NCBI RefSeq assembly: GCF_900106585.1
Contig: NZ_FNWH01000004.1
Coordinates: forward strand, 1 to 64,000
Origin: Acidaminococcus timonensis
GTDB taxonomy: Bacteria; Bacillota; Negativicutes; Acidaminococcales; Acidaminococcaceae
Length of the DNA stretch: 64,000 bases
Direction: 5' to 3'
Position numbers and translations under genes: made by a program. This document shows positions 20,429 through 47,450 of this stretch, piece after piece; the stretch's first letter is position 1, and the number at the start of each line of letters is the position of its first letter. The notes under the pieces were generated by a model. The model was not told the DNA's origin and did not search any database. It was given only the letters and a program-made list of their open reading frames with translations.

Positions 20429-20440
20429 ACATATGGGACT

Positions 20441-20545
20441 CTCATCTCACAATCGAATAACGCATTGCAGGACTTAGCACCGTTGACCCAAAGGCCATGG
20501 TTGCTGTGGCTTCAAAGGGCCATTCCCTCCACCACTCTTGATGAG
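20441..20545 (-). ncRNA. SAM-I (S-box) riboswitch aptamer
   Basis: On the minus strand it holds the S-box core words: CTCATCAAGAGTGG at the 5' side, GGAGGGA, GAAGCCACAGCAACC and GGTGCTAAGTCCTGC, closed by P1 (CTCATC with GATGAG). It precedes metK. By analogy, SAM binding stabilises P1 and lets the downstream terminator form, turning metK and priA off. Confidence 0.96.
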
Positions 20546-20568
20546 CTATATGTAATTGTGATGGTGTA

Positions 20569-38259: not shown

Positions 38260-39477
38260 ATGATAGGAAGTGGGCTTATTATGATAATACGCGATAGTGC
38301 AAGAAAAGGCAAGAGCGCATATGCTATCGGTAAAGAGCAGAATATTTCCAAGAATACGGCCAAGAAGTATATGCAAGTGGCTACTCTGCCGGAGCAACCT
38401 CATAAGCGCGGTTCCATTCTGGATCCCTTTAAGCCGCAGGTCAACCAGATGATGCACGATGGCATATTCAACTGCGTCGTCATCCTGGAGACCTTGCAAC
38501 AGATGGGTTACACCGGTGGGAAGACCATCATCAAGGATTATGTCCACGTTTTTCGTCCGCCAAAGACCATCCCGGCTGTGCCACGGTATGAAACCGAGCC
38601 CGGCAGACAAGCCCAGATGGATTGGGGAATCTGCCAATATTTGGGCACAGATGGCGAATTCCATAAAGTTCCGGCTTTCGTCATGACCCTGGGATACTCC
38701 AGGGCCAGGTACGTGGAATTCACAAAGCGGTGTGACCTCAAAAGCCTGGAACGCTGCATCCTGAACGCTTTCGAATATTTCGGCGGAGTTCCTGATGTTG
38801 TGCTGACAGACAACATGAAGACAGTTGTCCTGAAACACGAGGCCGGTAAGACCATCTTCCTTCCCGCTTTCGAAAGTTTCTGTGCCGATATGGGCTTCAA
38901 GCCTTCCACCTGTAAGGTACGCCGGCCTCAGACGAAAGGGAAGGTGGAACGTTCTGTCCGTTATCTCAAGGAGAATTTCCTGCCTGGAAGACGTTTCACC
39001 AATCTGTACGACCTGAACCGTCAGGCTCTTCAATGGTGCCAGCATGTGAACGGCAAGAAGCATGGGACTACAGGGAAAATCCCTCTGCAGGAATTGGCGG
39101 CCGAGCATTTGAACCCGCTCCCGCCTCAGGAACTGCGTAACCGTTACCGCTGGGAAGATCGGCGGATTTCCAAAGATGGATTCGTCAGTTTCGATGGTCA
39201 TCTCTATGGTATAGATTGGCATTACAGCGGCAGAGAAGCCCGGGTCCGGCTGTACCAGAACCATGTACAGGTATTCGTAGATAACCTTCCTGTGGCAGAT
39301 ATACCGCTCTCTGAAGTAAAGGGATATTATGTTCCGCAGCAGGCGCAATACAGCGGATTGGAGGCAAAGGAAGGCATTGCTTACCCTCGAACGGCAGGAA
39401 TCCAGATGAAAGAGGATGTGGTGAAACGACCTCTAGCCCTTTACGACAGGCTGATGGAGGTGGTATCCAATGCTTGA
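38260..39477 (+). CDS. istA: IS21-family transposase IstA
   Basis: 405 residues: N-terminal HTH (SAYAIGKEQNISKNTAKKYM), DDE catalytic core with Asp in QMDWG, Asp in LTDNMKT and Glu in KGKVERSV, and a C-terminal beta domain. AGGAGG lies 8 bases before the ATG. It overlaps istB by 8 bases, as usual in this family. Confidence 0.95.
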   Translation: MIGSGLIMIIRDSARKGKSAYAIGKEQNISKNTAKKYMQVATLPEQPHKRGSILDPFKPQVNQMMHDGIFNCVVILETLQQMGYTGGKTIIKDYVHVFRPPKTIPAVPRYETEPGRQAQMDWGICQYLGTDGEFHKVPAFVMTLGYSRARYVEFTKRCDLKSLERCILNAFEYFGGVPDVVLTDNMKTVVLKHEAGKTIFLPAFESFCADMGFKPSTCKVRRPQTKGKVERSVRYLKENFLPGRRFTNLYDLNRQALQWCQHVNGKKHGTTGKIPLQELAAEHLNPLPPQELRNRYRWEDRRISKDGFVSFDGHLYGIDWHYSGREARVRLYQNHVQVFVDNLPVADIPLSEVKGYYVPQQAQYSGLEAKEGIAYPRTAGIQMKEDVVKRPLALYDRLMEVVSNA

Positions 39478-40273
39478 AGTGGAGCATGCCAGGCAGCTCC
39501 TGGCTGAATTCAATATGCCGGAGGCAGCCTGCCAGCTGGATGCCCTTCTGGAAACGGCCGCTGCAAAAGACTCGACTTTTATTTCGTTTCTCGACCAGCT
39601 CCTGAGCTTTCAACAGAAGGAACGAACTGAGAAAGCCATCCGGAAAAGGATGAAAGCTGCGCGGATCCCGGCCGTGAAGACCCTGGAGGAATTCGATTTT
39701 TCGTTCCAGCCCAGCCTGAATCCGAAACAGCTCCAGGAACTGCGTACACTTGCTTTTGTGGAACGAGGTGAAAATCTGATCCTGCTGGGCCCGCCGGGGG
39801 TCGGCAAGACGCACCTGGCCACCGCGTTTGCGGTAGAAACCCTGCACCACGGCAAAACCGCATACTTCATTACGCTAGCCCATCTTATTGAAGATCTGGA
39901 AAAGCGTCGGGAAAAAAGGCTGTTGTCCAGGCGCTGCAAATTTTACGCCCGGCCAGATGTCCTGGTGATAGATGAAGTTGGCTATATGCAGCTGAGCCGG
40001 CAGCAGGCAGAATTGCTGTTCCAGATTGTCTGTGCCCGCTACGAGCGGGGCACCATAATTATGACCAGCAACAAGTATTTCAGTGACTGGGGTGAACTCA
40101 TGAGCGATTCAGTGATTGCGACTGCTATCCTGGACCGATTGCTGTACCATGCTCATGTGATAAATATTAGAGGTGAGAGTTACCGGCTGAAAGATCGTCT
40201 GCGTGCAGGTTTGAATCCGGCCGTCCCCCAGCCCGGCCTTGGGAAAACCGGCTTTAAGGACTTCCGGCCCTAA
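39470..40273 (+). CDS. istB: IS21-family helper ATPase IstB
   Basis: 267 residues, AAA+ ATPase related to DnaC. Walker A GPPGVGKTHLA (about 105-115), Walker B VLVIDEVGYM and sensor-1 IIMTSNKYF are present. It assembles on target DNA and directs IstA integration. It ends 81 bases before the right end of IS21. Confidence 0.95.
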   Translation: MLEVEHARQLLAEFNMPEAACQLDALLETAAAKDSTFISFLDQLLSFQQKERTEKAIRKRMKAARIPAVKTLEEFDFSFQPSLNPKQLQELRTLAFVERGENLILLGPPGVGKTHLATAFAVETLHHGKTAYFITLAHLIEDLEKRREKRLLSRRCKFYARPDVLVIDEVGYMQLSRQQAELLFQIVCARYERGTIIMTSNKYFSDWGELMSDSVIATAILDRLLYHAHVINIRGESYRLKDRLRAGLNPAVPQPGLGKTGFKDFRP

Positions 40274-40304
40274 GGCAGAAAAAGCATTGAATTTACCGTT
40301 TTAT

Positions 40305-40348
40305 TGGGTCACTTTTAACCGGCCAAATGGGTCAAATTGAACCCGGCC
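40305..40348 (+). repeat. IS21 right-end transposase-binding repeats
   Basis: Two inverted copies of the left-end word (TGGGTCACTTTTAACCGGCC at 40305-40324 and a similar word at 40328-40348). Confidence 0.75.
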
Positions 40349-40354
40349 TTGACA

Positions 40355-40359
40355 ACAAA
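40355..40359 (+). repeat. IS21 target duplication, right copy
   Basis: ACAAA, identical to 38144-38148 and continuous with the orfA reading frame that resumes at 40360. Confidence 0.85.
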
Positions 40360-40708
40360 TGAAATCTCATATCAGGAATTGGCAATTCGTGTAGGAATCA
40401 ACAATCCGTCATTGATTTCCAGATGGGTCAATGAATTTAAAATTGCGGGGCCGGATGCGTTACGGTCACATAAAAAAGGTAGGAAAAAGACTTTGAGCCA
40501 ATCAAAACCCAAAAAAACAGATACCCAGGTTCAACAACCGATGGTCAACATCAGTGTGGAACATGTCCAGGAGTTAGAGAATGAAAACCTTAAACTCCGA
40601 ATAGAGAATGCTTTTTTAAAAGAACTGAGGAGACTGCGTTTAGAGGACGAAGCAAAAATGAGAGAGTTGCGAAAATCATCTCCAGTCTCCGAGGATCATT
40701 CAAGTTGA
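40360..40708 (+). pseudogene. IS3 orfA, 3' part (split by IS21)
   Basis: Encodes the rest of OrfA: a second HTH (ISYQELAIRVGINNPSLISRWVNEF), a basic linker and a leucine-zipper-like coiled coil (VQELENENLKLRIENAFLKEL). It has lost its start and promoter to the IS21 insertion. The -1 frame (orfB) is open through the coiled-coil end, as expected for the programmed frameshift that makes OrfAB. Confidence 0.85.
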
Positions 40709-41550
40709 AAGACATTCTCTCCTATACGCAAATGCCCAAAGCAACCTATATGTACTGGCAGAAACGGTTTGACCGCGAGAATCCAGACCAGGAAGTAGAG
40801 GAGAAAATACAGGAAATCCGCAGCCAGCATAAAGATTATGGATACCGTCGCATGACCGGTGAGCTAAAGAACCAAGGGATTTGCGTGAACAAGAAGAAAG
40901 TTCAACGTATCATGCAGAAACTGAGCCTTCAGGTAACATCTTTTACCCGGAAGAGCCGTAAATACAGCTCCTATAAGGGTAAGGTAGGAACCATTGCTCC
41001 AAATAGGATACATCGTCGTTTTGAGACGAATATCCCTCACCAGAAGATTACGACCGACACTTCAGAATTCAAATACTATGAAGCAGATTCACAGGGACAT
41101 TTGACTCTGCGCAAGCTTTATCTGGATCCTTTCCTGGACATGTTCAATAATGAAATCATCAGCTATGGAATAGCCAAATATCCTTCGGCTAACAGCATAC
41201 TGGAAGCTCAAGCCAAAGCAATCAAAATTACTGCTGATTGTCCGTATCGAAGAACATTTCACTCCGATCAGGGCTGGGCATACCAAATGAAATTCTATAC
41301 CAAAAGACTAAAAAACGAACGAATTTTTCAGAGCATGTCTCGAAAAGGCAACTGTCATGATAACGCTGTAATGGAAAACTTCTTCGGCTTACTGAAGCAG
41401 GAAATATATTACGGAGTGACCTACTACAGCTACAAAGAATTAAAAGGCGCTATCGAACGATACATCAAATACTATAACGAGCAAAGAATCAAGGAAAAAC
41501 TGGGCTGGAAAAGTCCTGTTCAATACAGGCTTTCCTTGCAGGCAGCATAA
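40705..41550 (+). CDS. IS3-family transposase OrfB (DDE integrase domain)
   Basis: 281 residues from a TTG. It has an HTH_21 region (GYRRMTGELKNQGICVNKKKVQRIM) and rve integrase core with Asp in TTDTSEF, Asp in FHSDQGW and Glu in NAVMENFFGLLKQE. Normally made as an OrfAB fusion by -1 frameshifting; the OrfB frame is open back beyond 40621. With orfA cut, a functional fusion cannot be made from the IS3 promoter, so this copy is probably inactive. Confidence 0.9.
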   Translation: MKDILSYTQMPKATYMYWQKRFDRENPDQEVEEKIQEIRSQHKDYGYRRMTGELKNQGICVNKKKVQRIMQKLSLQVTSFTRKSRKYSSYKGKVGTIAPNRIHRRFETNIPHQKITTDTSEFKYYEADSQGHLTLRKLYLDPFLDMFNNEIISYGIAKYPSANSILEAQAKAIKITADCPYRRTFHSDQGWAYQMKFYTKRLKNERIFQSMSRKGNCHDNAVMENFFGLLKQEIYYGVTYYSYKELKGAIERYIKYYNEQRIKEKLGWKSPVQYRLSLQAA

Positions 41551-41758: not shown

Positions 41759-42829
41759 TTAGGATTTTGCTTTCTCCAGTTCCTCCACCATCAGTGTCCC
41801 CAGGCCGCCGGTCTGGGCGTCGATTTTTCTGTACAGTTCCTGGATGGCCGGCAGATTCCGGACTTTCTGGTAAAATTCCGGCTGGTAGGTCACCAGGATC
41901 ATGCCTTTTTTCTGAAGCTGGTCCTTTCCGTCCCTGTCCACCTGCACCAGGCAGGACGCCAGTTCTTTCATGGCTTCCTGCACCGATTCCTCCAGCACTT
42001 TCTGATAGGCTTCCGGCAATGCGTCAAAGGCTTTTTTGTTCAGGACCATTTCATTGGCGTACAGGATCACATTGGTTTCGGCCACATATTTCTGTACTTC
42101 ATTGAAATGGGCAGAAACAATGGTATCTGCCGCATTCTCTTCTGCATCCACAATGCCGCTCTGGAGGGAGAAATACAGTTCCGGCCAGGCCAGAGGCGTA
42201 GGATTGGCCCCCAAGGCTGACCAGAAGGCCATATGGTTCTTGTTGCTCATGGTACGGATCTTCATATTCCTGAAATCTTCGATGGTCCGCACCGGCCTGT
42301 TGGAGGTCATGAGCCGGTAGGTGCCGTTCTGCAGGGTCCCCATATAATGGAGCCCTGACCGGTCATAGGCAGCGGCCAGTTTTTTCCGGAAAGGACCGTC
42401 TCCGTTCAGCACCCGGTCGATGGTCTTCCCATCATAGGGAGCGAACACCATGGGCAGATCGAATACAGCGCCCTCGGGTACGAAGGCCGTCACCGGAGCC
42501 ATCTGCCCCACCACCAGCTGAATGTCGTTGGCCCGCAGCTGGCGCAGCAGGTCTTCATCCCCACCCAGTTCAGCGTTGGGATGGTAATCGATTTTCAGGC
42601 GGCCTTCCGTTTTGGCCGCCACTTTTTTGGCCACCAGTTCCCCGAATCGCTGGCCTACGGAGCCTTTCCCGGAGGAATCGCCCCCCACCAGGGTCACCTG
42701 GGGCAGATCGGCATAGGGTCCTTTGGCTGCTGCCTGTTTCTGTTCCTTCCGGCTTCCGCAGCCGCTGAGGCCCAGTAGCAGCAGGCCTGCCAGGCACGCC
42801 GTAATCAGTTTTTTCATGTTCATATGCAT
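41759..42829 (-). CDS. dctP: TRAP transporter substrate-binding lipoprotein (DctP family)
   Basis: About 356 residues: lipoprotein signal LLLLGLSGCGS, then a DctP fold with the family words ELGGDEDLLRQLRANDIQL and KIRTMSNKNHMAFWSALGANPTPLAWPEL (carboxylate-binding Arg in KIRT) in order. It captures an organic acid for the DctQM permease. The start at 42829 has AGGAG 9 bases upstream. A lipid anchor is unusual for DctP, which is commonly soluble. Last gene of aroE-dctQ-dctM-dctP. Confidence 0.9.
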   Translation of the reverse strand: MHMNMKKLITACLAGLLLLGLSGCGSRKEQKQAAAKGPYADLPQVTLVGGDSSGKGSVGQRFGELVAKKVAAKTEGRLKIDYHPNAELGGDEDLLRQLRANDIQLVVGQMAPVTAFVPEGAVFDLPMVFAPYDGKTIDRVLNGDGPFRKKLAAAYDRSGLHYMGTLQNGTYRLMTSNRPVRTIEDFRNMKIRTMSNKNHMAFWSALGANPTPLAWPELYFSLQSGIVDAEENAADTIVSAHFNEVQKYVAETNVILYANEMVLNKKAFDALPEAYQKVLEESVQEAMKELASCLVQVDRDGKDQLQKKGMILVTYQPEFYQKVRNLPAIQELYRKIDAQTGGLGTLMVEELEKAKS

Positions 42830-42859
42830 CGTCCCTTTCTCCTTTTCAGGCTGCAATTC

Positions 42860-44155
42860 CTACCACAGACTGGGCAGCCAGGTGGACAGCCAGGGGATGT
42901 AGGTGATTCCCAGTAACGCCACCAGGAACGCACAGAGGAAGGGGACGGATTTTTTCGCTACACGCATGGGCTGCTGGTTGGCAATGTTCCCGGCCACGAA
43001 CAGGTCCAGGCCGAAGGGCGGCGTTGCCAGTCCAATGGACAGGCAGCTTACCAACACCACACCCAGGTGTACCGGGTCGATGCCCAGCTTTTTGCAGGCA
43101 GGCAGCAGCACCGGTACCAGGATGATAATGGCCGGTCCCGTATCCATCACCATACCCAGCAGCAGGAAGAACACAACCAATACTGTCAGTACAGCAATGC
43201 CCGAGGTGAAATTCCCCAGGATAAAGCTTTCCACCACCCGGGTCGCCCGGGTCATGGACAGCACCCGTCCGAAGGCCGTGGCAAAGGCCAGTACAAAGGC
43301 CAGGCCCCCATAGGTGTGGACGGATTCCCGCAAAAGGGGCAGGATATCCCGGACCGTCATGGTATGGTACAGGAACAGGGAAACCAGCAGGGCATAGAAC
43401 ACAGAAACCGCCGCCGCTTCCGTAGGTGTGGTGAACCCGGTATAAATGCCTCCCAGCACGATGACCGGGCACAGCAGGGCCCAGAGACTCTCTTTCAGCA
43501 GCTTCCAGAAACCCCGGCGGGACAGTTCCGCCATCCGCTCCTGCACCTTGGCCTTGTCTTCGCCTCGGTGCAGGCAGTAGATGACCGCATAGACCATGAG
43601 CGCCAGCCCCACCAGAACGCCCGGCAGGATCCCGGCCAGGAACAGCTTGCCTGTGGAGACCCCGGTGGCCAGGGAATACAGTACGAAGGGAATGGACGGC
43701 GGGATGATAACCCCCAGGCCTCCTGCCACCGCCACCAGTCCGGCGCTCCAGGTCCTGTCATAGCCCAGTTCCGTCAGGAAGGGGACGCACATAGCCCCTA
43801 CCGCCGCCGTGGTGGCCGGTCCGGAACCTGAAATGGCTCCATAGAACAGACAGGTCAGGATCACGGCACAGGGCAGCCCGCCGGTGAACCGGCCTGCAAA
43901 AAACGCAAAGAAGTCAAACAGCTTCCGGGAAATGCCGCCCTTGGCCATGATCACACCGCCCAGGATGAACAGGGGCACGGCCAGGATCGGGGTCGAATTG
44001 GCCCCGGAAAATGCGTTATGCAGCAGCTGCCCCATGGTTCCCCCCTGGTGCAGCAGGGCGATGGGTGCCGTAGCCCCTAGGATCATACTGATGCCAATGG
44101 GCAGAGAAATGGCAATGGCCAGCAGGAATACAGAAAAAATCAGTACCGCAGACAT
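42860..44155 (-). CDS. dctM: TRAP transporter large permease (DctM)
   Basis: 431 residues, about 12 membrane segments. Family words include PLFILGGVIMAKGGIS, SGSGPATTAAVGAM and PPFGLDLFVA. It is the sodium-coupled transport subunit. Its ATG overlaps the dctQ stop. Confidence 0.93.
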   Translation of the reverse strand: MSAVLIFSVFLLAIAISLPIGISMILGATAPIALLHQGGTMGQLLHNAFSGANSTPILAVPLFILGGVIMAKGGISRKLFDFFAFFAGRFTGGLPCAVILTCLFYGAISGSGPATTAAVGAMCVPFLTELGYDRTWSAGLVAVAGGLGVIIPPSIPFVLYSLATGVSTGKLFLAGILPGVLVGLALMVYAVIYCLHRGEDKAKVQERMAELSRRGFWKLLKESLWALLCPVIVLGGIYTGFTTPTEAAAVSVFYALLVSLFLYHTMTVRDILPLLRESVHTYGGLAFVLAFATAFGRVLSMTRATRVVESFILGNFTSGIAVLTVLVVFFLLLGMVMDTGPAIIILVPVLLPACKKLGIDPVHLGVVLVSCLSIGLATPPFGLDLFVAGNIANQQPMRVAKKSVPFLCAFLVALLGITYIPWLSTWLPSLW

Positions 44156-44757
44156 CAGTCATCCCCTCCCCGGGCCAGAGCCGCTTCGGCTTCCGCCTCC
44201 TGGAAGGTCTGTTCCATGGTGGACAGTTCCTTTTCCTGCAGATGCTGCACGTGGAACCACAGCTGCTGTACGGCCCGCAGAGCGGCCAGGACGAATCCGA
44301 TGAGCATGAAACTGTACACAAAGGCAATGGGCCATTGCATGGCCGGCGAGATTTCATGGCTTTCCTGGATGGTCCCCACCACCTGCCAGGAAAATAGTCC
44401 CAGCACTGCCATGCACCCCAGGGTCATGGCATCCACCACCAGGTTCAGTATCTTCCGTAAGCTCTCCGGCAGCAGGTCCTTCAGCACTCCCACCCGCAGC
44501 ATGCTGTCCGTACGGATGGTATAGGGCAGAGAAAGAAAAACGCTCCAGATCCACAGGAACCGGCACAGTTCTTCTGCCCAGGTCAGAGACGCCACCCCGG
44601 GGATTTTCCGGACAATGACCTGCAGCATGGTGACGCAGGCAATGAGGACCAGCATCACCACCAGGAACGTCTCTTCCAGGTGCAGATCCAGCCAATGGAT
44701 CAGAGCGATGGAATTTGTCTTTTGAATTGCTTTGCTGCTTTCCTTCTTGTTCTCCAT
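44155..44757 (-). CDS. dctQ: TRAP transporter small permease (DctQ)
   Basis: 200 residues with four membrane segments and the TWAEELCRFLWIW motif of DctQ. It forms the membrane complex with DctM. It starts 15 bases after aroE. Confidence 0.9.
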   Translation of the reverse strand: MENKKESSKAIQKTNSIALIHWLDLHLEETFLVVMLVLIACVTMLQVIVRKIPGVASLTWAEELCRFLWIWSVFLSLPYTIRTDSMLRVGVLKDLLPESLRKILNLVVDAMTLGCMAVLGLFSWQVVGTIQESHEISPAMQWPIAFVYSFMLIGFVLAALRAVQQLWFHVQHLQEKELSTMEQTFQEAEAEAALARGGDD

Positions 44758-44772
44758 GATATTTCTCCTTTG

Positions 44773-45636
44773 CTACTTTGCTTCCTTCCCGGCCAGGATC
44801 TGGAGGAGTTCCTGCCGCATGGCTTCTACCGGAGCCTTGTGCCCCGTCCAAAGTTCGATCTGGGCCGTACCCTGGTACAGGCTCATGGTCAGCCCGTTCA
44901 ACACCCGGCAGCCAGCCTGCTCTGCATTCTGCAGGAACCGGGTCCGGGCCGGATTGTAACAGGCATCGAAATAAAACTGGCCTTTCCGGATGAATTCCGG
45001 AGGCAGCGGCGTTTCGCCGATGGTGTTGCCCATGCCCACCCCGCTGGCATTCATCACGACCGTGGCATCCTTCACCCTGGAAAAATCCTGATAGGGAACT
45101 GTTTCCGCCACCGGAGCAAAATTCCGGTTGATGTCCTCCACCAGGCTCCGGGCACTGTCCGGGAACAGATCCGTGATATAGATCTTCGGGGCTCCATGGT
45201 AGGCCAGCACCGAGCACATGGCCCGGCCGGCACCGCCTGACCCGAAGCAGAAGAACGTCTCCTTCGTCACGTCGATGCCCGCTTCCGTCAGTGCCGTGTA
45301 AAAGCCGATCCCGTCGGTGTTATAGCCCTTCAGCCGTCCGTCCGGCAGCTTCACCACCGTGTTGCTGGATCCCATCTTCCTGCACAGGGGATCCAGGTCG
45401 TCCAGATATTCCAGCACCTTCACCTTGTTGGGCTTTGTAACAGCGAACCCGGCAAACGGCATGTATCGCAAGCCCTTTATGATGTCGCCCAGATGTTCCT
45501 GACCGGTGACAGTGTAAAAATACACCAGATTGAGGCCGGCGGCCTCGTACCCCCGGTTCTGCATCCGGGCCGCAAAAGACTGGGCCAGGGGATCACCCAG
45601 CAGGGTGATGAACTGGGTATGGATATCGATTGTCAT
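44773..45636 (-). CDS. aroE: shikimate/quinate dehydrogenase-like protein (AroE family)
   Basis: About 287 residues: substrate domain (1-105) and NAD(P) domain with GSGGAGRAM (about 135). The catalytic Lys is kept (FAVTKPNKVK) and so is NTDGIGF, but the shikimate-binding SLS of canonical AroE is QSFAA, losing the second Ser, and the NVT before the Lys is AVT. With a TRAP transporter in the same operon, a catabolic dehydrogenase for quinate, shikimate or a relative is more likely than the biosynthetic enzyme (inference). The start at 45636 has AGGAT about 8 bases upstream. Confidence 0.8.
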   Translation of the reverse strand: MTIDIHTQFITLLGDPLAQSFAARMQNRGYEAAGLNLVYFYTVTGQEHLGDIIKGLRYMPFAGFAVTKPNKVKVLEYLDDLDPLCRKMGSSNTVVKLPDGRLKGYNTDGIGFYTALTEAGIDVTKETFFCFGSGGAGRAMCSVLAYHGAPKIYITDLFPDSARSLVEDINRNFAPVAETVPYQDFSRVKDATVVMNASGVGMGNTIGETPLPPEFIRKGQFYFDACYNPARTRFLQNAEQAGCRVLNGLTMSLYQGTAQIELWTGHKAPVEAMRQELLQILAGKEAK

Positions 45637-45660: not shown

Positions 45661-45689
45661 TGCGAGACACCTCTCGCATTTTGTATACA
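45661..45689. promoter_or_regulatory. two candidate operators ahead of aroE
   Basis: A perfect inverted repeat TGCGAGA-CACC-TCTCGCA (45661-45678) and an 8-base palindrome TGTATACA (45682-45689) lie between the proximal promoter and the aroE start. The TGTATACA core equals that of the upstream palindrome at 45841-45852 and resembles GntR/FadR-family sites. Confidence 0.5.
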
Positions 45690-45704
45690 TAAGTCGTGGT
45701 TTTT

Positions 45705-45733
45705 ATTGTAAGCCTGTAATGGTATTTTGTCAA
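45705..45733 (-). promoter_or_regulatory. proximal promoter of the aroE-TRAP operon
   Basis: Minus-strand -35 TTGACA (45728-45733), 17-base spacer, -10 TACAAT (45705-45710). Confidence 0.75.
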
Positions 45734-45770
45734 CGAGAAGCCCATTGGGAAATAGGGAAAGAAAAAGCAT

Positions 45771-45798
45771 AAAAAAAAAGCCCTTGAAAAACAAGGGC
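45771..45798 (-). terminator. early intrinsic terminator between the two aroE-TRAP promoters
   Basis: Minus-strand stem GCCCTTG/CAAGGGC (5-base loop) followed by nine T. It lies only about 25-50 bases after the start point expected for the distal promoter, so transcripts from there would be near 53 bases long unless it is read through. Confidence 0.8.
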
Positions 45799-45829
45799 CA
45801 AATGAGGGGCAACTTCAACTTACAGTTGC

Positions 45830-45858
45830 ATTATAGCACGATTGTATACAATGTGCAA
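45830..45858 (-). promoter_or_regulatory. distal promoter with palindromic operator in the spacer
   Basis: Minus-strand -35 TTGCAC (45853-45858), 17-base spacer, -10 TATAAT (45830-45835). The spacer contains a perfect 12-base palindrome ATTGTATACAAT (45841-45852), the layout of a repressor-controlled promoter. The sequence resembles GntR-family operators. Confidence 0.7.
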
Positions 45859-45975: not shown

Positions 45976-47358
45976 TCACTTCCCATAATCCTTCCCCACA
46001 TAGATCACCGCATCTCCACTGCCCGGGTTCACGGAACCCCGGAGCAGCGTGTAATTGAAGGGCAGGCTGCCTACCCGTTCTTCGGCCCGGCTGCTTCCGG
46101 AATTGATCAGGACCTGGGTCTGGTCCATGGGATTGCCGGTGGTGATGCTCAGCACCACGAACCCTGCATTCCGGGCATCCGCAGCAGCCTGGGCCCCGGT
46201 CTGGGAACTGCCGCTGCAATTGACGATGGTGGCCTGCAAGGGCCGCTGTTTCGGTGCGGGCGGCAGGGAAGACGAACTCCCTGCTCCGCTGCTCCCGGCC
46301 TGACCGGCAGGCGGCAAGCCCTTTCTCTTCAGTTCCAGTTTCCGGGATTGTTCCACGGCCTTCTTCAGATGGTCGTTCTGGATCTTGATTTCCCGGACCT
46401 TACTGGGTTCTGCTGTACTGTTCACACCCAGCAGCTGGTCGTATTTTTCCTTGGCCCGTCTGGCAGCCAGGGTATAGCCGCTGCCCACCTGCACGCCCTG
46501 CATGCGGGTCACCTGCCGGCCCAGGGCTTCCATATCCGGGATCCAGTAGCTGATGTCATCCAGGTAAGCCGGGCTGCCCTGGACCATTTCCGTCTCCAGC
46601 CGGGATTCTCCGGATACATTCCTGGCAAAGGTCATGAGCAGGCTGGCCAGATCCATCACCGAAAGGTCCGTATCAATGCTCTGGTACAGGGTACGGGCAA
46701 TTTCAGGGGCCCGGGTCAGCAGATTGGTGGCGGACAGTTTCTGGAACACGGCTTTCATGAACTTCTGTTGCCGTTTCACCCGGCCAATGTCCCCTTCCTC
46801 ATCCCGGTACCGCACATACTGGATGGCCGTGGTGCCGTCCAGATGCTGCCGTCCTGCATGGAGACTGATCACAAGGCCCGTTTCCCCATCATAGGGGTCC
46901 GTATACTGCATGTCTTTTTCCACATCGATATCCACACCGCCGATGGCATCTACCAGTTTTACGAATCCCTGAAAATCCACCAGTATATAATGGCTAATCT
47001 GCAGTCCCAGGAAATTTTCCAGGGTTTTCTGGCTCAGCTGGTGACCCCCATAGGCATAGGCATGGTTGATCTTATCCCAGCCATGGCCGGGAATGGATAC
47101 AAGGGTATCCCGGGGCACCGAGAGCAAAGAGAGCTTGTCCTTGCCCGGATCCACCATGGCCACCATCAGGGTGTCCGAACGGCCCACGTCGCCGCTGCGT
47201 TTGTCCACGCCCATGATCATGAGGTTCCGTTTTCCGTGGAGCTTCCCGGTGCCATCTGCCACGGGCTGGGGTTTGGGGCGCAGGGCGAACGCCAGGCCCA
47301 CCACCACGGCCAGCAGCGCCACCACGCCGGCGATCCATACCTTGTATTTCCGTACCAT
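45976..47358 (-). CDS. LytR-CpsA-Psr (LCP) family protein with LytR_C domain
   Basis: About 460 residues: one N-terminal membrane helix (about 8-27), LCP domain (about 45-200) with SDTLMVAMVD, LSVPRDT and VQYVRYRDEEGDIGR-type Arg motifs, and a C-terminal LytR_C domain (about 370-455). LCP enzymes attach secondary polymers to peptidoglycan. The start at 47358 has AAAGGAG upstream. In a diderm the attached polymer is not obvious; it may be a wall-linked glycan. No strong terminator was seen after it. Confidence 0.88.
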   Translation of the reverse strand: MVRKYKVWIAGVVALLAVVVGLAFALRPKPQPVADGTGKLHGKRNLMIMGVDKRSGDVGRSDTLMVAMVDPGKDKLSLLSVPRDTLVSIPGHGWDKINHAYAYGGHQLSQKTLENFLGLQISHYILVDFQGFVKLVDAIGGVDIDVEKDMQYTDPYDGETGLVISLHAGRQHLDGTTAIQYVRYRDEEGDIGRVKRQQKFMKAVFQKLSATNLLTRAPEIARTLYQSIDTDLSVMDLASLLMTFARNVSGESRLETEMVQGSPAYLDDISYWIPDMEALGRQVTRMQGVQVGSGYTLAARRAKEKYDQLLGVNSTAEPSKVREIKIQNDHLKKAVEQSRKLELKRKGLPPAGQAGSSGAGSSSSLPPAPKQRPLQATIVNCSGSSQTGAQAAADARNAGFVVLSITTGNPMDQTQVLINSGSSRAEERVGSLPFNYTLLRGSVNPGSGDAVIYVGKDYGK

Positions 47359-47450
47359 AGCCGTCTCCTTTTGCAGGGTTACAGATTTTTGGTGAAAAGT
47401 GTCTATATATTTATTATACCGTAAAAAAGAGAACAAAGCATGAAAAATAA

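Follow-up and report, generated by a model that had tools for sequence, protein, structure and literature searches.

Upstream of an aroE-like gene and a set of TRAP transporter genes in Acidaminococcus timonensis lies a short minus-strand element that we describe here as a small RNA (sRNA) gene. The stretch analysed, hereafter the window, comprises 64,000 nucleotides (contig NZ_FNWH01000004.1, positions 1 to 64,000), and the element occupies positions 45771-45823. By direct reading and by scan, its promoter consists of a -35 box TTGCAC (45858-45853), a 17-base spacer, and an extended -10, TGC-TATAAT (45835-45830); the aligned copies support the -10 box and have a TTG-type -35. The spacer holds a perfect 12-base palindrome, ATTGTATACAAT (45841-45852), a candidate operator. 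Downstream is an intrinsic terminator (45771-45799), found by reading, scan, and folding. Its hairpin (45799-45779) starts 31 bases past the -10 and ends with nine T (45779-45771), the first of which the terminator scan assigns to the stem. If transcription starts about 7 bases past the -10, at a predicted 5' end near 45823, the RNA would be approximately 53 bases long. The promoter with its palindrome, the terminator, and this RNA length had all been described in an earlier sequence-only reading of the locus, and each is present as it stated. A covariance model of the element matches 45771-45826 in the organism's own genome (E 2.4e-13). The stretch directly before the hairpin, GCCCCUCAUUU (45800-45810), contains CCCCUCAUUU and is referred to as the seed; in the window copy it is predicted to be unpaired apart from its first G and C.

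Promoter and terminator counts do not set this element apart. In the 8 kb scanned, promoter-like matches were near chance (7 observed vs 5.5 expected) and terminator-like matches were slightly above it (14 vs 9.2 expected, standard deviation 3.3). The element stands above chance because it is conserved. When 61 genomes were searched with 101 bases of DNA, 31 of the 37 family genomes matched at E ≤ 1.3e-5 (those missed were G011, G016, G022, G041, G045, and G048), while none of the 24 genomes outside the family matched below 1e-3. With 30 copies lined up on the core without gaps, pairwise identity was 0.25-0.29, the chance level, beyond 80 bases upstream and 60 bases downstream, 0.36-0.44 in the promoter region, and 0.90 in a 20-base core. 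CCCCTCATTT is invariant in all 30 aligned copies, as is CCCCUCAUUU, located before the terminator. The terminator stem is mostly GCCCTT/AAGGGC, but reads GCCTCG/CGAGGC in G067 and G068. As the whole stem was swapped there with the seed intact, selection appears to hold the seed and not the hairpin sequence. A short peptide was rejected, as length changes of one or two bases inside the conserved part argue against an open frame. A gene for a trans-acting, base-pairing sRNA should be non-coding and have its own promoter and intrinsic terminator, and the distal element has these features; its conserved seed is also what is expected of such an sRNA.

The sequence-only reading had offered two explanations, a regulated small RNA or an attenuator with ligand-dependent read-through. 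In the latter, the distal promoter would drive the aroE-TRAP operon, and a ligand or protein would control read-through of a terminated leader. The sRNA 3' end does lie on the same strand, approximately 135 bases upstream of aroE, and TGTATACA is found at both promoters. However, aroE has its own conserved promoter, and an AEC-type permease gene or remnant (by eye) intervenes in G007 and G003. The downstream gene also differs over the 30 copies, being DegV-like in 11 and elsewhere aroE, a MATE or OPT gene, or an unshared gene (names by eye). In contrast, the upstream gene, on the sRNA strand, encodes a LytR-CpsA-Psr (LCP) protein in 24 of the 30 copies (45976-47436, minus strand, in the window). 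In three of the six copies without it (L057, L061, and L063), the upstream genes are trpB and/or trpA by eye, which in the window are located just past the LCP gene. Because the upstream gene is conserved and the downstream gene is variable, a stand-alone sRNA is favoured over an attenuator. The element also occurs in G009 and G010, genomes without a close relative of the window's aroE. Where a riboswitch or attenuator would have a fixed downstream gene and a leader fold with alternative structures, we found a variable gene and an RNA of about 53 bases, too short for an alternative long structure or an aptamer-sized leader. No riboswitch was found here at Rfam thresholds, and a riboswitch was rejected, the sole Rfam match in the window being a distant one for S-adenosylmethionine (SAM). 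No Rfam family reached threshold for the sRNA in the window, and six loci gave weak matches below threshold. We consider the attenuator very improbable. The distal promoter and terminator are a separate small-RNA gene, outside the aroE-TRAP operon. With a conserved promoter, core, terminator, and upstream gene, and a variable downstream gene, we conclude with high confidence that 45771-45823 is a stand-alone sRNA gene. It is also encoded apart from its candidate targets, which lie elsewhere. The small-RNA explanation is well supported, and by conservation across the family, beyond what a single sequence could show.

To describe the distribution of the sRNA, a covariance model (R1) was built from the 21 of 30 copies that align without a shift and was applied to 380 class genomes. 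It matched 50 of 59 family genomes at E ≤ 7.3e-9 and 52 of 59 at E ≤ 1.6e-6. Beyond the family, it matched both f2 genomes, G296, and, more weakly, G297. Eight further matches (L197-L204) were read and are mostly ordinary-looking terminators; L201 and L203 resemble diverged copies, and L202 resembles a second f2 copy that lacks a promoter. A pattern combining promoter, seed, and T-run was present in 41 of the 380 class genomes, vs 5 for the reversed pattern. Copies whose flanks have changed were thus seen in families f2, f27, f28, and f6, all within the class; the two f6 genomes were added by the pattern, and one of the 41 genomes, G338, looks unrelated. In named genomes, a pattern scan gave 47 contigs. 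Of these, 37 are titled Acidaminococcus, Phascolarctobacterium, Succiniclasticum, Avacidaminococcus, or Acidaminococcaceae/-ales. The others are five “Selenomonadales bacterium”, one “Negativicutes bacterium”, three “Acholeplasmataceae”, which bear the same gene and promoter, and Anaerospora hongkongensis. G068 has two sRNA-like copies (L195 and L196) with a common seed and different terminators; by eye, a clear promoter is present in L196 only.

The palindrome in the promoter spacer points to how the sRNA may be controlled. In the form TTGTATACAA it fits TnGT-n-ACnA, which we take to be the FadR-type GntR pattern, and it occurs 51 times in nine Acidaminococcus genomes, vs 12 times for the reversed pattern. 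We inspected 45 of these sites (the six left out are in G001, G002, and G005), and 32 precede a coherent set of genes: the sRNA (7), gdhA (9), hgdH (4), cstA (3), a FAD-linked oxidase, an aminotransferase, and gltS (2 each), and aroE, a GntR gene, and a TAXI-type binding protein (1 each). For those of the 32 that sit between divergent genes, the assignment is a choice; the remaining 13 of the 45 are unclear or within genes. Gene names were read by eye from N-termini, and four were checked, with one example each, against solved structures. These checks gave glutamate dehydrogenase for gdhA, (R)-2-hydroxyglutarate dehydrogenase for hgdH (1XDW, E 1.5e-211), and an LctD-like protein for the FAD-linked oxidase, and upheld the aminotransferase. 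The nine gdhA sites include those of both copies in the own genome, which lie about 5 kb apart (L040, C5:53618-59724) and are identical at 411 of 412 translated positions; TTGTATACAA begins 115 bases before the start of each. An operator for a GntR/FadR regulator should be a palindrome of this presumed type common to a coherent gene set, which is what these sites are. Because TTGTATACAA is shared by the sRNA and the glutamate-fermentation genes, we place the sRNA in their regulon, to which it probably belongs in Acidaminococcus (gdhA, hgdH, and gltS). In three species, TTGTATACAA is also located within, or close to, a coding region that looks comEC-like by eye (L039:10855, own genome C6:1194854, L239, and L283), where it may reflect chance or conserved coding.

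The candidate regulator is probably a FadR-type GntR protein. The sequence-only reading had suggested operators for a GntR-like regulator. This is plausible given the recurrence of a FadR-type pattern before glutamate-fermentation genes, with the regulator itself a candidate. Three GntR-type open reading frames (ORFs), and no further one, were found in the own genome. One of them, an FCD member beside ispE (named by eye), is a GntR protein by its match to solved GntR structures, and none of the genome's five exact palindrome sites is within 4 kb of its gene. In G005, one GntR gene (L242) does have TTGTATACAA upstream, together with a seed match of ten bases that covers its ribosome-binding site, which makes a feedback loop with the sRNA possible. 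Among 16 regions inspected (15 GntR matches and one other), ten had a GntR-signature ORF. GAGGGG was found in none of the ten leaders of these ORFs, and operator-like sites were found at L446 and L453 only. The own genome also encodes a GntR protein with two tandem GntR winged-helix matches, 3' of a lepA-like gene (by eye; L043:5251-6243, own genome C6:334250-335242), and other Acidaminococcus have long GntR frames similar to it.

The complement of the seed, AAAUGAGGGG, is a G-rich ribosome-binding site. To find which genes carry such sites, we collected those with ATGAGGGG 3-12 bases before ATG and compared them with genes bearing the canonical AAGGAGGA in the same 15 genomes. The fetched genes, which cover part of the pattern places, were named with NCBIfam. 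For ATGAGGGG, 50 proteins were scanned: 48 of the 52 listed rows plus L308 and L346, which had been removed by an open-upstream-frame filter, with two second-start rows, L270, and L347 left out. Of these, 35 were named and 17 are amino-acid related: metF, two LivK-like, two GlnH-like, two dapF, DAHP synthase, two proB, lysA, ilvA, an aminotransferase, trpD, diaminopimelate (DAP) dehydrogenase, ilvE, and gltP. The proB, dapF, LivK-like, and GlnH-like genes were each seen in two species. The canonical set (40 of 43 listed rows scanned, 26 named) had one strictly amino-acid gene, aspA. This contrast, 17/35 vs 1/26, is significant (Fisher p = 1.3e-4), and it persists without L308 and L346 (16/33 vs 1/26, p = 1.3e-4) and when each family is represented by a single gene (13/31 vs 1/25, p = 0.0014). 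Seed matches of at least 9 bases occur at several amino-acid gene starts. At the starts of the window's own aroE and dctM, no good predicted pairing was found relative to shuffled seeds; 91% of shuffled seeds pair equally well with aroE and 18% with dctM, and action of the sRNA on aroE or TRAP was rejected. For gltS, the operator is seen in two genomes, G003 and G005, and GAGGGG at the ribosome-binding site in two others, G007 and G000 (L375, named by NCBIfam, and L379, L295, and L250, named by eye), so gltS may be controlled at both levels.

Taken together, we have moderate confidence in a trans-acting, C-rich sRNA that would block ribosome-binding sites and be linked to glutamate fermentation. 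One regulator, a FadR-type GntR protein acting as a repressor, would control the sRNA along with gdhA, hgdH, gltS, and related genes. We judge such joint control reasonably probable; the sharing of sites is computed, and the regulator is what we infer from it. CCCCUCAUUU would pair with ribosome-binding sites rich in G (GAGGGG, best AAAUGAGGGG), thereby blocking translation of genes for amino-acid biosynthesis and uptake. On this step our judgment is evenly balanced: complementarity and enrichment were computed, and blocking is what they would predict. The outcome would be a cell that, while living on glutamate, ceases to make or import amino acids it can do without. More tentatively, and in our view rather doubtful, this may be an ancient, minimal (approximately 50-nt) Negativicutes sRNA whose single C-rich seed is invariant and which forms the post-transcriptional arm of a regulon for amino-acid fermentation. 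In Acidaminococcus, glutamate catabolism and the sRNA would be switched on together by one regulator, and the sRNA would mask GAGGGG sites and in this way shut down the synthesis and uptake of amino acids. In G005, it would also feed back on the GntR gene L242, and lineages would rewire the sRNA through gain or loss of the operator while retaining the seed.

Several observations weigh against this model. R1 found no clear copy in 7 of the 59 family genomes, and the seed is altered in G016 (CCTCTAATTT). Across eight minimum-energy folds, CCCCUCAUUU is fully open in just three; its first C is paired in two (including the window copy), and in the remaining three weak helices pair part of it. The GTATAC core of the palindrome is present in 27 of 47 distinct seed-matching copies (altered-seed copies excluded) and missing from 20, and control of the sRNA differs outside the genus Acidaminococcus. 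The ispE-side GntR gene occurs in 56 of 61 genomes, with or without the palindrome, which makes co-occurrence uninformative for finding the regulator. For 18 of 20 candidates, the predicted duplex outperformed 95% of shuffled seeds; the energies are circular, however, because the targets were picked by seed match. Samples were small and both sets were weighted to G007, the amino-acid classification was our own, and the E-value limits for naming differed between the sets (1e-5 and 1e-20). With a lenient definition that counts methionine salvage and peptidases, the canonical set has 4/26 amino-acid genes (p = 0.013; with one gene per family, 13/31 vs 4/25, p = 0.045). With a very loose one that adds NifS, an L-aspartate-oxidase-like protein, and AbgT, it has 7/26 (p = 0.11, or 0.058 at an equal E-value limit). 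Moreover, in the TAGAGGGG set, meant as a control, 5 of 13 named genes (17 scanned) are amino-acid genes: LivK-like, a lysine/arginine/ornithine binding protein, asd, gltS, and thrC. As TAGAGGGG keeps GAGGGG, either the pairing core is GAGGGG or specificity is weakened and such genes have the site for another reason. The canonical AAGGAGGA control was added because TAGAGGGG shares the pairing core, and raw counts (178 ATGAGGGG vs 77 TAGAGGGG places) were not used because TAG is rare in coding DNA.

These last points bear on a rival explanation, namely that the stand-alone sRNA has few real targets, outside the amino-acid set, and that the enrichment stems from a property of G-rich sites or from classification. 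The same trend in the TAGAGGGG set and the weakened contrast under the loose definition would fit this, as would crcB, an Nramp-like gene, and an 86-aa SpoVS-like gene, each with a seed match in two species. Set against it are the strict contrast with canonical sites, also when each family is counted once, and the operator shared with glutamate catabolism genes, which suggests the same physiology; we regard this rival as unlikely. Another possibility is that the RNA targets a protein or the ribosome in place of mRNAs, its C-rich stretch titrating an RNA-binding protein or mimicking the anti-Shine-Dalgarno sequence, CCUCC, of the 16S rRNA end. The RNA is very short, and its invariant C-rich stretch does resemble that end. 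However, the invariant part runs past the Shine-Dalgarno-like core to UCAUUU, and the long matches noted above lie at several amino-acid gene starts. We find it quite improbable and retain base pairing with ribosome-binding sites as the preferred action of the sRNA.

Phascolarctobacterium and Acidaminococcus are gut bacteria that draw mainly on succinate or amino acids. With an sRNA present across the family that has a short seed without variation, an operator that can be read from sequence, and a concrete list of candidate targets, gene regulation in these bacteria becomes directly testable. It is also a compact natural example of an sRNA whose seed is kept while promoter control and terminator change. 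Among the literature matches listed, which cover few subscription papers, no base-pairing sRNA of Acidaminococcus or Negativicutes is described. The closest parallels are RoxS of Bacillus subtilis and RsaE of Staphylococcus aureus. C-rich regions of these sRNAs pair with G-rich targets in central metabolism, RsaE is reported to act on genes for amino acid and peptide transport, and transcription is under the metabolic repressor Rex (PMC8216469, PMC5419742). Like them, the Acidaminococcus RNA is stand-alone and C-rich, with predicted pairing to G-rich sites of metabolic genes. Unlike them, it is about 53 nt long, belongs to another bacterial class, and has another candidate operator; it has one C-rich seed, vs four in RoxS (PMC5419742). 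The RoxS/RsaE Rfam model, assumed to be in the library searched, gave no match at the gathering threshold in the window and none at E ≤ 5 for the six loci. FsrA and CsfG of B. subtilis also have C-rich pairing regions (PMC8216469); no Rfam family matched here, with the existence of Rfam models for these two unconfirmed. With respect to FadR/FCD-type GntR operators, TTGTATACAA fits the type and is a candidate site.

The downstream neighbour of the sRNA gene, and not part of it, is the aroE-like gene of the shikimate dehydrogenase family (44773-45636, minus strand, start placed at 45636), followed by TRAP transporter genes for the small and large permeases and the DctP binding protein (41759-44757, minus strand). 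A separate aroE-TRAP promoter was found by scan, TTGACA-17-TACAAT (11/12; 45705-45733, minus strand). Just past it is a second operator-like site, ATGTATACAA (45681-45690), with TGTATACA at 45689-45682, and the inverted repeat TGCGAGA-N4-TCTCGCA lies in the aroE leader (45661-45678, minus strand). The second promoter, TGTATACA, and repeat had been noted by the sequence-only reading at these places. The aroE leader matched with E below 1e-10 in three relatives only, and promoter, operator-like site (TGTATACAA in 4/4 aligned leaders), and repeat are all kept in the four species. The repeat shows one two-sided change and one G-U among the four leaders, and 127 of 500 shuffles reached the two-sided change. 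As this covariation is within the shuffle range, it does not distinguish a hairpin in the RNA from a DNA site such as a second operator, and the repeat may be either. Elsewhere in the window, two pairs of transposase-like genes, one resembling IS21 and the other IS3 by eye, lie between an aroD-like gene and the TRAP operon (38260-41550, plus strand), and the SAM riboswitch (RF00162, 83 bits) is at 20439-20547 on the minus strand.
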